From the NCBI GenBank assembly GCA_035709005.1, contig DASTFB010000076.1, positions 1-53,458 on the forward strand: DNA of 53,458 nucleotides. The letters run 5' to 3'. Below the pieces are notes generated by a model, which did not search any database, was not told the origin of the DNA, and saw only the letters and a list, made by a program, of their open reading frames with translations. Of the stretch, positions 45,210-53,458 are shown one piece after another. The DNA comes from Candidatus Methylomirabilota bacterium. Its GTDB lineage: Bacteria > Methylomirabilota > Methylomirabilia > Rokubacteriales > CSP1-6. Numbering within the stretch: the stretch's first letter is position 1; each line of letters starts with the position of its first letter. Made by a program: the position numbers and the translations under genes.

Positions 45210-46337
45210 ATGACCGAGCCCGCGCCGTGTTGTTGCCTGGCCAGCGACGCCACCAGACGGGCCTTCCTAATGTCGCTGTTGGGCGCCGTCGCGGCGGCGT
45301 GCGCCGGTCCCACCGCCACCGGGTCGGCGCAGCGCGAGCGCGACCTCATGGCGCAGGCGGCGTCGGTCGTGACCGGCTCTCCGACCGTCGATCTGCACGC
45401 GCACCCCGGCGGCTTCACGCGCGCCCGTACGGGTCAGCTCTCCACGACGGCCCTCGACGACATGCGGCGCGGCGGTGTCGACGCCGCGTTCTTCAGCGTG
45501 GTGACGGACGGGCCCGTCATCCGCCGGGAGCCGGGCGGCATCCGCACGTACCGGGAGCCGCGCCCGGGTGAGCTCTATCGCTCGGCGCTCGGCCAGGCCG
45601 AGCGGGTGCGAGTGCGCGCGCACGAAGGACGGCTCACGCTGCTGCTCGAGCCCGGCGACCTGGCCACGGCGCGTCGCGCCGGGTTGCCCGGCGCGCTGCT
45701 CGCCCTGGAAGGCGGCGACGCGCTGGAGGGCCGGGTGGCCCGCGTGCGCGAGTTCCACGCGCTCGGCGTGCGGTCCATCCAGCTCATGCACTACCGCATC
45801 AACGAGCTGGGCGACATCCAGACGGCGCCGGCGCAGCACGGGGGCCTCACCCCGCGTGGCCACGACGTGCTGGCCGAGATGAACCGGCTCGGCCTCGTGG
45901 TGGACGGCGCCCACGCCGCGCCGCAGACGCTGCGCGACATCCTCGCCGCCTCGCGCGCGCCGATCATCGTTTCCCACACGGGGCCGGCGGCCCTGCGGCC
46001 CTACGCCCGGCATCTCGCCGACGACCTCCTGCAGGCCGTTGCCGCCCGCGACGGCGTCATCGGCATCTGGCCGCTGTCGCGTGGCGGGCTGGGCTCGCTC
46101 GACCAGATGCTGGCGGACATCGAGCACGTGCGCCGCCTCGTGGGTCTCGACCACGTCGGGATCGGCACGGACATGGCCGGCCTGTCGAGGTTCACCGTGA
46201 TCCCGACCTACCGGGACTTCGCGCCGCTGCCGGCCGCGCTGCTGGCCCGCGGGTACGGCGAGAGCGAGCTGACCAGGCTCCTCGGAGGAAACGTCATGCG
46301 CGTGTTCGAGGCGGCGACCGCCGGGAAGATGACATGA
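45210..46337 (+). CDS. Membrane dipeptidase (M19 renal-dipeptidase-like) lipoprotein
   Basis: From ATG 45210 the protein is 375 residues. The N-terminus contains a twin-Arg motif and a lipobox-like Cys (ATRRAFLMSLLGAVAAACAG), so export by Tat and lipidation is likely. M19-type metal-site segments are visible: VDLHAHPGGF (HxH where the family usually has HxD), LALEGGDALEG, VVDGAHAAPQTL, IIVSHTGPAAL and VGIGTDMAGL. It should hydrolyse dipeptides or lactone-like compounds at the cell surface. The HxH replacement of HxD may alter metal binding. TACCCT lies 9 bases upstream of the ATG. Start and stop overlap with the next gene is ATGA. Confidence 0.85.
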   Translation: MTEPAPCCCLASDATRRAFLMSLLGAVAAACAGPTATGSAQRERDLMAQAASVVTGSPTVDLHAHPGGFTRARTGQLSTTALDDMRRGGVDAAFFSVVTDGPVIRREPGGIRTYREPRPGELYRSALGQAERVRVRAHEGRLTLLLEPGDLATARRAGLPGALLALEGGDALEGRVARVREFHALGVRSIQLMHYRINELGDIQTAPAQHGGLTPRGHDVLAEMNRLGLVVDGAHAAPQTLRDILAASRAPIIVSHTGPAALRPYARHLADDLLQAVAARDGVIGIWPLSRGGLGSLDQMLADIEHVRRLVGLDHVGIGTDMAGLSRFTVIPTYRDFAPLPAALLARGYGESELTRLLGGNVMRVFEAATAGKMT

Positions 46338-46771
46338 GCGACGCCAGGACGCGGCAGCTGGCCGTGGGGCTCAGGCACGTGCGCACGGTCACGGTCACGG
46401 ACGACATGACGCCCGCGCACCTGCGAGGCGAGCCGATTCGCGTGCTGTCCACTCCGGACATGATCCGGCTCATCGAGCAGACGGCCATCGAGGCGGTGCA
46501 GCCCTACCTGGCGGCCGGCCAGGCGACCGTGGGCACCCGGGTCGACGTCGCACACCTCGCGGCGACGCCGGTCGGGATGACCGTCACCATCACCATCGAG
46601 CTCACCGAGATCGACCGGCGGCGGCTGGCCTTCCGCGTGCAGGTCCGTGACGAGCTCGACGAGGCGGGCCGCGGCACCCACGAGCGGTTCATCGTCGACG
46701 GCGCCCAGCGGTTGCCGCGGCTTCAAGATAAGGTGAATCGCTGGAAGGCCACGGGAGGCAAGCCGACATGA
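46334..46771 (+). CDS. Fluoroacetyl-CoA thioesterase (FlK)-family hot-dog thioesterase
   Basis: The 145-residue protein is a single hot-dog domain with the FlK triad: T40 in VLSTPDMIRLIEQTA, E48 in the same helix, and H74 in VGTRVDVAHLAATPVG; RGTHERFIVD closes the fold. The family hydrolyses acyl-CoA thioesters, and FlK itself removes fluoroacetyl-CoA. The two lid phenylalanines of FlK are not at the equivalent positions (R31 and P34 here), so fluoro-specificity is not supported. Its ATG overlaps the dipeptidase stop, and the next ATG overlaps its own stop, which places it in an operon. Natural substrate unknown. Confidence 0.87.
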   Translation: MSDARTRQLAVGLRHVRTVTVTDDMTPAHLRGEPIRVLSTPDMIRLIEQTAIEAVQPYLAAGQATVGTRVDVAHLAATPVGMTVTITIELTEIDRRRLAFRVQVRDELDEAGRGTHERFIVDGAQRLPRLQDKVNRWKATGGKPT

Positions 46772-49064: not shown

Positions 49065-50330
49065 GTGCCGGGGCCGGTGAAGTCCGCCGACCGGCTGCTT
49101 TCACCGGGCGCCGTCACCGCCCTGTTTCTCGAGCGCCAGCACCTGGCCCGGCCACGCGCGGCCCGGCTGACGGCCCGCCGCCTGGGCCGTTTCGTCGAGG
49201 ACGTGGGCGGGCTCCAGCTCGATTCCATCAACGTCCTCGACCGGGCCCACTACCTGACCGTGTGGAGCCGGTTCGGCCCGTACGATCGCGCGTGGCTCGA
49301 CGGCGTCGTGTATCGGCGTCGGCTGCTCTTCGAGTACTGGGCGCACGCGGCCTGCCTGGTGCCGACGACGATGTTGCCGTGGTGGCGCCGCGCCATGCTC
49401 GACTACCGCCTGCGACACACCGGCTGGTCCGATTACCTTCGCCGGAATCCGCGCGTGCTGGCCCGGGTGAAGGCGGAGGTGTCGGCCCAGGGCCCCATGG
49501 GTAGCGCCGACTTCGACGGGCGCCGCCCGTCCGGCGGAGGCGGGTGGTGGTCGTGGAAGCCGGTGCAGCACGCCCTGCACTATCTGTGGATGACGGGCGC
49601 GTTGACCGTCCACTCCCGCCGGCACTTCCACAAGCGCTACGACCTCCTGGAGCGCGCCCTTCCTGCCGTGCTGGGCTGCGCCCCGGTCTCGGCGCAGGAC
49701 TTCGCGCGCTGGCATCTCGAGCGCTCGCTGCACGCGATGGGCGCGGCGACGGAGCGTGACCTGGCCGCCTATCTGACGTTCCCGCGGTTCGGCCCGAGCG
49801 GGCGCCGGGCCGTGCTGCGCGCCATGCTGGCCGGCGGCGAGGTCACGGAGGTCGTGGTCGAGGGCCGGCCCGGCCGCTGGTTCGCGTTGACGCGCGACCT
49901 GCCGGCGCTGGCCCGCACGCGGCCGGGCGGTCCGCTCGCGGCCGGGACGACGCTGCTCTCGCCCTTCGACTCACTGCTCTGGTCGCGCGAGCGCGTCCGG
50001 CGCCTCTTCGACTTCGACTACCGCATCGAGGTCTACACTCCGGGCGACCAGCGGGTGCACGGTTACTACACGCTACCGATCCTCCACCGGGGGCGGCTCA
50101 TCGGGCGCGTCGACGCCAAGGCCCACCGCGCCGAGCGTCACCTGGAGGTTCGTCACGTGCACTTCGAGCCGTGGTTCCCCGCCGGCCTCGACCCGGACGA
50201 GGCGCTCGACGGGCTGGCCGAGGCCCTGCGATCGCTGGCCGGGTTCGTCGGTGGGGACGCCGTGGTGCTGCGCCGGGTGTCTCCCGCGCGCCTGCGGGCG
50301 GCGCTGGGGCGTGCGCTTTCGAGGCAATGA
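49065..50330 (+). CDS. Winged-helix YcaQ/AlkX-like protein (interstrand crosslink DNA glycosylase family)
   Basis: The 421-residue protein starts at GTG 49065 (GTG 49077 is an alternative). It has the HTH_42/YcaQ architecture, beginning with LSPGAVTALFLERQHL. The catalytic Q-x-D motif of the family is present as QLD in GGLQLDSINVLDRAHYLT. Long aromatic-rich stretches (FEYWAHAACLVPT, RRHFHKRYDLLERALP, LSPFDSLLWSRERVRRLFDFDYR, RRVHFEPWFP-like) match family blocks. YcaQ unhooks DNA interstrand crosslinks, and relatives resist azinomycin-type antibiotics. Activity here is inferred from the family. Confidence 0.87.
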   Translation: MPGPVKSADRLLSPGAVTALFLERQHLARPRAARLTARRLGRFVEDVGGLQLDSINVLDRAHYLTVWSRFGPYDRAWLDGVVYRRRLLFEYWAHAACLVPTTMLPWWRRAMLDYRLRHTGWSDYLRRNPRVLARVKAEVSAQGPMGSADFDGRRPSGGGGWWSWKPVQHALHYLWMTGALTVHSRRHFHKRYDLLERALPAVLGCAPVSAQDFARWHLERSLHAMGAATERDLAAYLTFPRFGPSGRRAVLRAMLAGGEVTEVVVEGRPGRWFALTRDLPALARTRPGGPLAAGTTLLSPFDSLLWSRERVRRLFDFDYRIEVYTPGDQRVHGYYTLPILHRGRLIGRVDAKAHRAERHLEVRHVHFEPWFPAGLDPDEALDGLAEALRSLAGFVGGDAVVLRRVSPARLRAALGRALSRQ

Positions 50331-50337
50331 CGCTACT

Positions 50338-51234
50338 ATGACGCCCGCCATGTACGAGGACTTCCGCCGCTTCGACATCCCGACCAGCGATCCCGAGGTC
50401 ACGATCCACGGCGTCGTGGGCGGTTCGGGGCCGGCCCTGCTCCTGCTCCACGGCAATCCGCTCACGCACATCCACTGGCGTCTGATCGCGCCCCGGCTGG
50501 CCCAGGAGTTCACCGTCGTGGCGACGGACTTGCGAGGCTACGGCGACAGCGGCAAGCCGCGCGGTCGGCCCGACCATGCCAATTACTCGTTCCGCCGCAT
50601 GGGGCTGGATCAGGTCGAGGTGATGGAGGCTCTCGGCTTCGCGCGGTTCATGGTGGCCGGTCACGATCGGGGCGCCCGCACGGCGTGCCGCATGGCCCTC
50701 GACCATCCGGACAGGATCCTCAAGCTCGCCGCCGTCGACATCCTGCCCACCCACCACGTGTGGACGCACGTGACGCGCGAGTGGGCGCTCAACTCCTACC
50801 ACTGGGCCTTCCTGGCCCAGCCCTACGACTTTCCCGAGCGGCTCCTGGCCGGGCACGAGGAGTACTACATCCGGCTCAAGCTCGGCTCCCACGGCATGGG
50901 CAAGGGCGGGATCGCCGAGGAGGCGCTCCGCGAGTACATCCGCTGCTGCACGGCCGAGAGCATCCACGGCGTGTGCGAAGACTACCGCGCCGCGGCCACC
51001 ATCGACTTCGAGCTCGACACCAAGGACTTCGAGGCCGGGCACCGGATCACGTGCCCGGTGCTGGTGCTGGTCGGCGGCCAGAGCCACACCGCCCGGCTGT
51101 TCGGCTACGAGAAGGCCTGGGCGGCCTACGTGAGCGACCTCGTGCGCTGCGTGGCCTTGCCGTGCGGACACTACCCCGCCGAGCAGGCTCCCGAGGAGAC
51201 GTACACGGAGCTTCGCGCGTTCTTCGAGGGCTGA
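50338..51234 (+). CDS. Alpha/beta hydrolase, haloacetate/fluoroacetate dehalogenase-like
   Basis: The 298-residue protein has a complete haloacetate-dehalogenase active site. Nucleophile D110 with R111 and R114 is in AGHDRGARTACRM, D134 in VDILPTHH, H155-W156 in NSYHWAFLAQP, Y216 in VCEDYRAAA and catalytic H278 in LPCGHYP. The set D-R-R-D-H-W-Y-H is that of fluoroacetate dehalogenase, in which H, W and Y hold the leaving halide, and the spacing is nearly identical. An epoxide hydrolase or another ester hydrolase remains possible. ATG 50350 (TACTAT 10 bases upstream, no SD) is an alternative start. Confidence 0.87.
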   Translation: MTPAMYEDFRRFDIPTSDPEVTIHGVVGGSGPALLLLHGNPLTHIHWRLIAPRLAQEFTVVATDLRGYGDSGKPRGRPDHANYSFRRMGLDQVEVMEALGFARFMVAGHDRGARTACRMALDHPDRILKLAAVDILPTHHVWTHVTREWALNSYHWAFLAQPYDFPERLLAGHEEYYIRLKLGSHGMGKGGIAEEALREYIRCCTAESIHGVCEDYRAAATIDFELDTKDFEAGHRITCPVLVLVGGQSHTARLFGYEKAWAAYVSDLVRCVALPCGHYPAEQAPEETYTELRAFFEG

Positions 51235-51237
51235 GCA

Positions 51238-51704
51238 TCAGTCGACGGGCGTCTCGGCCACGCGGCCGTGGGCCGTGCGGCGCCGCCACACGTCTCGCCT
51301 GCCTTCTCGGCGGCCGCTCCCTGAGCTCCCTCGCTTTCGAGCCACTCGATCACGCTCGCCAGGGCGGGACTGCGCCCGAGCACCTCGCGCCAGTGGCCGC
51401 TCTGCAGCTCCGTCTGCAGGAGCTTGATCCCGGTGCCCAGCTGGACCAGCAGCGTGCGGCCCACCAGAATGAGCGGCGTCACCACGCCCAGGCCGACGGC
51501 GGCCACGGCCAGGCCGGCCGCGCCGTCGCGCCAGCGGACGCGACGCTTGATGGCCCGATGCAGCGGGTGGGTCATCACGGCCAGCGCCAGGGCGAAGGCC
51601 AGGGCGGGCAGGAACGGTCGCACCAACAGGTAGCACAGATAGAAGGTGAGGATGGTGAGGCCGACGAGGATCAGGGCCAGCACGCGCTCGCGGGACACGC
51701 TCAC
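51238..51704 (-). pseudogene. AI-2E family transporter gene with large internal deletion
   Basis: Reading minus from GTG 51704, the first ~140 codons encode the start of an AI-2E/PerM transporter: RERVLALILVGLTILTFYLC, YLLVRPFLPALAFALALAVM, and GLAVAAVGLGVVTPLILVG, then TGIKLLQTELQSG. The sequence then jumps, in a different frame, to VWRRRTAHGRVAETPVD and a stop at 51238-51240, which looks like the normal C-terminus of such proteins (WRRRTA motif). The middle ~200 residues with most TM helices are missing. The product would be non-functional. The stop is 3 bases from the convergent hydrolase stop. Confidence 0.75.
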
Positions 51705-51835
51705 GGCGTCTCTCGTGGCAATGCCGTGCTGGTGAGTATCCGGCTTGACTTGTCTACCCTGCGGCTCCATGCTGCCAGCCGCCGGAAAACCCGCGACACG
51801 GAGGAACGGCTACGTGAAGATCAAGGGGAAGTGAC

Positions 51836-53458
51836 ATGACCGGCGGCGAGGCGATCGTCAAGACGCTGGTCCGGGAGGGCGCCCGGGTGGTGTTCGGGCT
51901 GCCCGGGGTGCAGCTCTACGGCATCATCGCCGCCCTGCGCGACGAGCCCGAGCTCCGATTCATCACCTGCCGTCACGAAGGAGCCACGAGCTTCATGGCC
52001 GACGGCTACGCCCGGGCGGGCGGCGGCGTGGGCGTGGCGCTGGTGGTGCCGGGGCCCGGGCTGCTGAACGCGGCGTCCGGGCTGAACACCGCGTATTCGG
52101 CGTCGTCCCCGGTGCTCATGATCGCGGGCGAGATCCCCCGTCATCAGATCGGCAAGCACATCGGGGTGCTCCACGAGCTGGACAACCAGCTCGACGCCAT
52201 GGCCGGCGTCAGCAAGTGGCGGGCGGGCATTCGTCAGGTCGCCGACGCCCCCCGCCTGGTGCACGAGGCCTTCGGCCAGCTCCGCACGGGCCGGCCGCGG
52301 CCGGTGATCGTCGACATGCCCTGGGACGTGATGGAAGACGAGGCCGAGGTGGAGCTGGTGGCTGCCGGCCACCCGCCCCGCCCGGCCGCGCCGGCCGCCG
52401 ACGTGGCCCGCGCCGCCGAGCTGCTGCTGGCCGCCCGGCGCCCCGTGATCTACGCGGGCGGCGGCATCCATCTCTCGGGCGCCCACGAGGCGTTGGCCGC
52501 CGTGGCCGGTTATCTGGAAGCCGGCGTGGCCACCACCGCCGAGGGCAAAGGCGCCGTCAGCGACGCCAGCGATCTGTCGCTGGGGGCCGGGCTCTGGCCG
52601 AAGAGTCCGCTGCGCGCGTATCTCGACGCCGCCGATGTCGTGCTGGCCGTGGGCAGCCGCCTGGCCCTGGCCGCGCTGCAACCGGCGCAGCAGCTGATTC
52701 AGATCGACGTCGATGGCGCGGAGATCGGCCGCAACCACGCCAAGACGGTCGGGCTCGTCGGCGACGCCCGGGCCACGCTCGAGCAGCTCCTCGAGCGACT
52801 GCGCGCGGGAGGAGCGGCCCGCACCACGCGCAAGGCCGAGCGCGAAGCGCTCCGGGCCGAGACCGCCTCGCACATGACGCAGGAGCCCAACACGTCGATC
52901 TTGAAATCGCTGCGGGCCGGGACGCCCGAGGACGCCATCGTCGTCGCGGGCATGACACAGATCGGCTACTTCTCACGCCCGTTCTGGCCGGTCTACCGGC
53001 CGCGGACGTATTTGACGTCGTCGTACTCCGGCAACCTCGGCTTCGAGTACCCGACCGCGCTGGGGGCCAAGGTGGCCTGCCCCCGCCAGCCCGTGGTGGC
53101 CATCTGCGGCGACGGGGGCTTTCTCTACAACGGCCAGGAGATGGCGACGGCGGTCCAGCAGCAGATCAACGTGGTCGCCGTCGTGTTCAACGACAACGCC
53201 CTGGGCAACGTCGGCCGGGACCTCGACGAGCACTGGGGCGGAAAGTTCGCCTCCGACCTGCACAACCCCGATTTCGTCCGCCTGGCCGAGGCCTACGGCG
53301 TCGTGGGCCGCCGGGCCAAGGAGCCGACCGAGGTCGGCCGGCTGGTGGCCGACGCCGTGCAGATGGACCGCCCGGTGCTCATCGAGGTGCCCGTCGGCCG
53401 CATGGCCCGGCCCGTGTTCTTCGGACCGCTCAAGACGCTGCCGCGGTACCGGCGCTAG
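51836..53458 (+). CDS. Thiamine-diphosphate-dependent decarboxylase/synthase family enzyme (acetolactate-synthase-like)
   Basis: The 540-residue protein is complete; its TAG is the last codon of the window. Domain order is the classic pyrimidine-PP-PYR: MTGGEAIVKTLVREGARVVFGLPG start, catalytic Glu in CRHEGATSFMADG, a central domain with AELLLAARRPVIYAGGG, and the ThDP loop CGDGGFLYNGQEM ending VVFNDNALGNV. Relatives include acetolactate synthase, benzoylformate decarboxylase, sulfoacetaldehyde acetyltransferase and oxalyl-CoA decarboxylase. The sequence does not decide among these. A TTGACT at 51745-51750 with a weak -10 (CATGCT, 17-base spacing) lies upstream. Confidence 0.9.
   Translation: MTGGEAIVKTLVREGARVVFGLPGVQLYGIIAALRDEPELRFITCRHEGATSFMADGYARAGGGVGVALVVPGPGLLNAASGLNTAYSASSPVLMIAGEIPRHQIGKHIGVLHELDNQLDAMAGVSKWRAGIRQVADAPRLVHEAFGQLRTGRPRPVIVDMPWDVMEDEAEVELVAAGHPPRPAAPAADVARAAELLLAARRPVIYAGGGIHLSGAHEALAAVAGYLEAGVATTAEGKGAVSDASDLSLGAGLWPKSPLRAYLDAADVVLAVGSRLALAALQPAQQLIQIDVDGAEIGRNHAKTVGLVGDARATLEQLLERLRAGGAARTTRKAEREALRAETASHMTQEPNTSILKSLRAGTPEDAIVVAGMTQIGYFSRPFWPVYRPRTYLTSSYSGNLGFEYPTALGAKVACPRQPVVAICGDGGFLYNGQEMATAVQQQINVVAVVFNDNALGNVGRDLDEHWGGKFASDLHNPDFVRLAEAYGVVGRRAKEPTEVGRLVADAVQMDRPVLIEVPVGRMARPVFFGPLKTLPRYRR

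Follow-up and report, generated by a model that had tools for sequence, protein, structure and literature searches.

Described fluoroacetate dehalogenases (FAcDs) include FA1 (1Y37), H-1/DehH1 of plasmid pUO1, RPA1163 (3R3U), NOS0089/Alr0039 of Nostoc (3QYJ) and DeHa4 of Delftia acidovorans D4B (9C9F). NOS0089 defluorinates both fluoroacetate and difluoroacetate (PMC11022551), and DeHa4 is reported to act on fluoroacetate (PMC12184663) and is named a fluoroacetate dehalogenase in the PDB title of 9C9F. Trp150 of FA1 is reported to be essential for removing fluorine, whereas dechlorination proceeds without it (PMC11022551). Two tryptophans, Trp156 and Trp185, sit in the active-site pocket of RPA1163 (PMC11465415), and Trp180, Gln245, Met246 and Ser147 line or point toward the active site of H-1 (PMC12955510). 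The pUO1 locus (L094 1762-5409) carries a SAM methyltransferase gene, a FlK-family (fluoroacetyl-CoA-thioesterase-family) gene and the H-1 gene, followed by an IS481-family transposase gene, with crcB downstream. An equivalent cluster is found in Caballeronia S22 (PMC11812338).

Fold and catalytic residues of the hydrolase

We analyzed a window of 53,458 nucleotides, in which an intact ORF on the + strand (50338..51234, from ATG 50338 to the stop at 51234) specifies an FAcD-family alpha/beta hydrolase of 298 aa, as judged from the reading frame, homology and a structure model. Because homologues begin at query residues 2-5, the ATG at 50338 is favored over an in-frame GTG upstream (50251). A 199-aa ORF on the opposite strand (51171-51770) overlaps the 3' end of the gene and weakly matches the start of an AI-2E transporter (E 5e-4); it may represent a truncated gene or an ORF that is open by chance. 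In HMMER searches, the hydrolase aligned over nearly its full length with Alr0039/NOS0089 (E 1e-82), FA1 (E 9e-76) and RPA1163 (E 6.5e-68). Its AlphaFold model has a mean pLDDT of 94, and the nearest folds include FA1, NOS0089, DeHa4 and RPA1163 (TM 0.93-0.95 to the query, rmsd 1.3-1.7 Å), with 40-48% identity to solved FAcDs in the fold alignment. NOS0089 resembles it closely (fold TM 0.94-0.97, 48% identity, all eight active-site residues shared), and RPA1163 shares the mechanistic residues and the fold at about 41% identity. This resemblance is far above chance, yet it is plain homology.

An earlier note on this DNA had listed D110, R111, R114, D134, H155, W156, Y216 and H278 as a complete FAcD active site and proposed an alignment with FAcD structures as a check. 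That alignment bears the list out: the query runs nearly full-length on the solved FAcDs, and all eight residues (numbered from Met1 of the query) fall on their catalytic counterparts. The Asp-His-Asp triad consists of Asp110, His278 (51169..51171, +) and Asp134 (50737..50739, +) as nucleophile, base and acid, respectively. The nucleophile and the two carboxylate-binding arginines, Arg111 and Arg114, lie in the motif GHDRGAR (50665..50679, +), and the halide pocket is formed by His155-Trp156 (50800..50805, +) and Tyr216 (50983..50985, +; Y219 in RPA1163, Y213 in H-1), with roles assigned after the characterized enzymes (PMC11022551). FA1 and H-1 share the triad, the Arg pair and the His/Trp/Tyr pocket.

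How much can be read from this set is another matter. We built a family alignment from the query, five PDB sequences and 101 relatives taken from genomes and plasmids. Of the 106 rows in which none of the eight columns is empty, 98 keep all eight residues. Since nearly all relatives carry it, the set marks the family and not fluorine use. W156, the counterpart of FA1 Trp150, permits fluoride release without proving it; its loss would have spoken against defluorination. Cif-like epoxide hydrolases (7JQX, 7JQZ) also have the alpha/beta hydrolase fold and a His-Tyr pair (PMC8244358), but their matches are much weaker (E about 1e-21, whereas FA1, RPA1163 and NOS0089 all reach 1e-67 or better). We thus reject membership of the Cif-type or soluble epoxide hydrolases: FAcDs are far higher in sequence similarity and nearer in fold. 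A placement inside that group, which the earlier note had named as grounds for abandoning its reading, was not seen.

Altered pocket positions and the Asn40 branch

Around the conserved set, the pocket departs from that of the best-characterized FAcDs at several positions. At the X of HG-X-P the query has Asn40 (50455..50457, +), and His185 (50890..50892, +) stands where verified FAcDs have a pocket Trp (W185 in RPA1163, W180 in H-1; PMC11465415, PMC12955510). Ser249-His250 (51082..51087, +) is a further branch signature, with His250 aligning with Ile253 of RPA1163 and Gln245 of H-1 (PMC12955510), and Thr251 replaces Ala/Met. Relative to H-1, the residues aligned with Trp180, Gln245, Met246 and Ser147 are His185, His250, Thr251 and Asn152. 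Phe or Tyr at 40 together with Trp at 185 is found in five of the six FAcDs compared (RPA1163, FA1, H-1, NOS0089 and DAR3835) and is typical of FAcDs, though not strictly defining: RPA1163, FA1 and H-1 have Phe40 and Trp185, while NOS0089 has a Tyr at the equivalent of 40, Trp at 185 and Gly-Ile in place of Ser-His. The sixth, DeHa4, resembles the query in lacking both Trp185 and the aromatic residue at 40, but has His40 and Arg185 instead and is placed in a separate branch of the tree. Because DeHa4 is a reported FAcD, the pocket changes of the query are compatible with fluoroacetate turnover. These substitutions, as placed by alignment, would probably give the query a larger and more polar pocket than FAcDs have.

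The three positions vary together across the family alignment. Among rows with Asn40, Trp185 occurs in 0/69 and Ser249-His250 in 65/69, whereas rows without Asn40 have Trp185 in 28/37 and Ser-His in 0/37; no row combines Asn40 with Trp185. In a tree of 74 sequences, from which the signature columns had been removed beforehand, the query falls in a group of 42 rows (support 100/96). This separate branch (100/96) joins the tree at a point where long branches meet, in a mixed region that includes FAcDs. Its members come from Rokubacteria, Betaproteobacteria and some Alphaproteobacteria, and we know of no assayed member. Close orthologues (72-82%) are found in Rokubacteria and in some betaproteobacterial-type bins. 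The Rokubacterial copies nest next to a betaproteobacterial copy (100/100), and this placement therefore suggests horizontal transfer. Of 95 genomes from the phylum, 34 encode a member of the family at E 1e-40; the window genome and the Rokubacteriota genome AR8 belong to the same GTDB family (locus L097 from G063 matches L009).

Other family members show further variation. In some Betaproteobacteria, a second FAcD-family paralogue (HGNPQN, CRDYRA) lies in tandem directly 5' of the orthologue (L032 4567-5949, L055 4594-5928). A FlK-family gene (L106 149-586, genome G044 contig 30) lies within ~1 kb of a gene for an FAcD-like protein with Pro in place of His155, and Pro occupies this position in four other FAcD-like loci (L107-L110). 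The window's own genome encodes a second FAcD-family protein (G000 C34:5147-6019; L002 1501-2370, − strand), 50% identical to the window hydrolase and with a canonical pocket (HGYPQT, His-Trp, Trp185, GHFL). To judge by its pocket, this paralogue is a better candidate FAcD than the window hydrolase.

Gene neighborhoods

The gene immediately upstream of the hydrolase encodes an AlkZ-like DNA glycosylase family protein (49065..50330, +) and ends 7 bp before it, making it a possible operon partner; a TPP enzyme gene lies downstream (51836-53458). A FlK-family gene (46334..46771, +) lies 3.6 kb upstream of the hydrolase. It overlaps with M19 peptidase and Gfo/Idh oxidoreductase genes in a separate upstream operon, which an amidohydrolase gene on the opposite strand divides from the hydrolase. 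The lid segment carrying Phe36 is taken as the mark of a FlK thioesterase. The window protein retains the FlK core (E 2.5e-21 to FlK structures) and shows a gap of six residues at the site of the pUO1 FlK lid, a region in which pUO1 FlK and S. cattleya FlK align without gaps. The FlK family is represented in 87 of 95 genomes of the phylum, and the window's genome has two such genes.

The window neighbors are not a constant feature of the orthologues. In single-sequence searches, the AlkZ, Gfo/Idh, M19 peptidase and TPP-enzyme neighbors were not conserved at 75 orthologue loci, with two TPP-enzyme hits as exceptions, and the search with the window's neighbor proteins also returned one weak amidohydrolase match. 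Single-sequence searches with the window's FlK-family protein and with FlK, Tam methyltransferase and CrcB of pUO1 found none of them near the same 75 loci. No fluoride riboswitch lies within the window; a CrcB gene and a fluoride riboswitch are located on another contig (C103) of the same genome. Unlike the H-1 gene, which adjoins methyltransferase, FlK-family thioesterase and CrcB genes, the window hydrolase is thus not part of a fluoroacetate utilization locus (methyltransferase, FlK, FAcD and CrcB), the window having only the lid-less FlK-family gene in another operon. As proof of an organofluorine context, this gene was rejected: it belongs to another operon and a near-universal family, has no lid and was not found near the 75 orthologue loci. 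The remark in the earlier note that there was no obvious organofluorine context overlooked the FlK-family gene at 46334-46771. Its suggestion that the residues imply fluorine-specific activity is not supported, given a set that is family-wide, a branch in which we know of no assayed member, other pocket positions that differ and a neighborhood without the fluoroacetate genes. Overall, that first interpretation is partly supported, for the FAcD catalytic and halide residues and not for fluorine specificity.

Branch loci outside the Rokubacteria have a different setting. Within ~6 kb of 55 such loci we counted TctC receptor genes at 36 and SMP-30/gluconolactonase genes at 22 (17 within 350 bp), followed by the isocitrate/isopropylmalate-dehydrogenase (15), TauD (14), aldehyde dehydrogenase (13), mandelate-racemase (12), MmgE/PrpD (9) and PdxA (8) families, all as raw counts uncorrected for background. 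TctC receptors are common in Betaproteobacteria. On two rhizobial plasmids, the branch member adjoins tartrate dehydrogenase and PdxA genes. These neighbors suggest a context of sugar-acid or hydroxy-acid metabolism for the non-Rokubacterial members; our literature search for a link between haloacetate dehalogenase and tartrate dehydrogenase found nothing useful. The Rokubacterial neighborhoods differ from these, and the window's own genes match those around the betaproteobacterial copies as little as those around the copies in other Rokubacteria.

Proposed reaction and alternative substrates

Based on these results, we propose, with a probability of roughly 0.6, that the hydrolase is an FAcD-family alpha/beta hydrolase of the branch with Asn40, a residue other than Trp at 185 and usually Ser249-His250, and that it uses its Asp nucleophile to hydrolyze a substituted carboxylic acid, possibly with a side activity on fluoroacetate. 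The analysis shows the fold, the residues, the place in the branch and the changes in the pocket; the chemistry that follows is our inference. Arg111 and Arg114 would grip the substrate carboxylate while Asp110 attacks the neighboring sp3 carbon in an SN2 reaction, the leaving group being stabilized by His155, Trp156 and Tyr216 during the attack. His278 and Asp134 would then activate a water molecule, which would hydrolyze the Asp ester. Because the pocket seems roomier and more polar, the best guess for the natural substrate is a substituted carboxylic acid of greater size or polarity, not fluoroacetate. Some turnover of halo- or fluoroacetate as a side reaction is plausible at slightly under even odds, and a preference for fluorine is quite unlikely.

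Could the protein nevertheless be a true FAcD, serving detoxification of or growth on fluoroacetate? The complete catalytic and halide set would fit, as would the defluorinating activity of NOS0089, its nearest solved relative, and the presence of one of the genome's just two FlK-family genes only 3.6 kb away, a spacing within 4 kb being expected by chance at about 0.7% for any such pair, judged post hoc. The altered pocket and the lid-less FlK-family protein from another operon and a family found throughout the phylum, however, speak against this, as do the lack of pUO1-type FlK, methyltransferase and CrcB homologues near the orthologues and the location of CrcB and the fluoride riboswitch on a different contig, and we consider it improbable. 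A general haloacid dehalogenase, with the family mechanism but no fluorine preference and with chloro, bromo or larger 2-halo acids as substrates, is a second alternative: in FA1 and H-1 the same residues handle chloroacetate and bromoacetate (PMC11022551), a smaller residue at Trp185 lets RPA1163 accept bulkier substrates (PMC12955510), and a Neorhizobium member is annotated, by annotation only, as a haloacetate dehalogenase. No halo-acid genes were recognized beside any orthologue, however, and we regard this as possible, if on the unlikely side.

The remaining alternative is that the enzyme serves hydroxy-acid catabolism by hydrolyzing an electrophile with a carboxylate but no halogen, for example an epoxy acid or a lactone. 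Here His155 and Tyr216 would act like the ring-opening His-Tyr pair of Cif-type epoxide hydrolases, which are closely related to FAcDs (PMC8244358), and the lactonase, tartrate-dehydrogenase and PdxA families adjoining part of the branch would find a place. Yet the protein is closer to FAcDs than to epoxide hydrolases in both sequence and fold, and no such neighbors turned up in the Rokubacteria that we examined, which leaves this idea possible but somewhat unlikely.

Returning to the proposed hydrolase of a substituted carboxylic acid, it is conceivable, though less likely than not, that the Asn40/non-Trp185/Ser-His branch is a distinct enzyme group of soil and freshwater bacteria that applies the defluorination machinery to another natural class of carboxylic acids. 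If so, it would reveal the enzymes from which FAcDs arose or to which they gave rise. Few enzymes can cleave C-F bonds, and they are in demand for dealing with fluorinated pollutants. Candidate screens based on the eight catalytic residues would take in the whole Asn40 branch, as these residues fail to split fluorine-acting members from the others. Asn40, position 185 and Ser249-His250 provide testable criteria for sorting the family, and the Asn40 branch is a natural experiment on the pocket residues that count for fluoride release.
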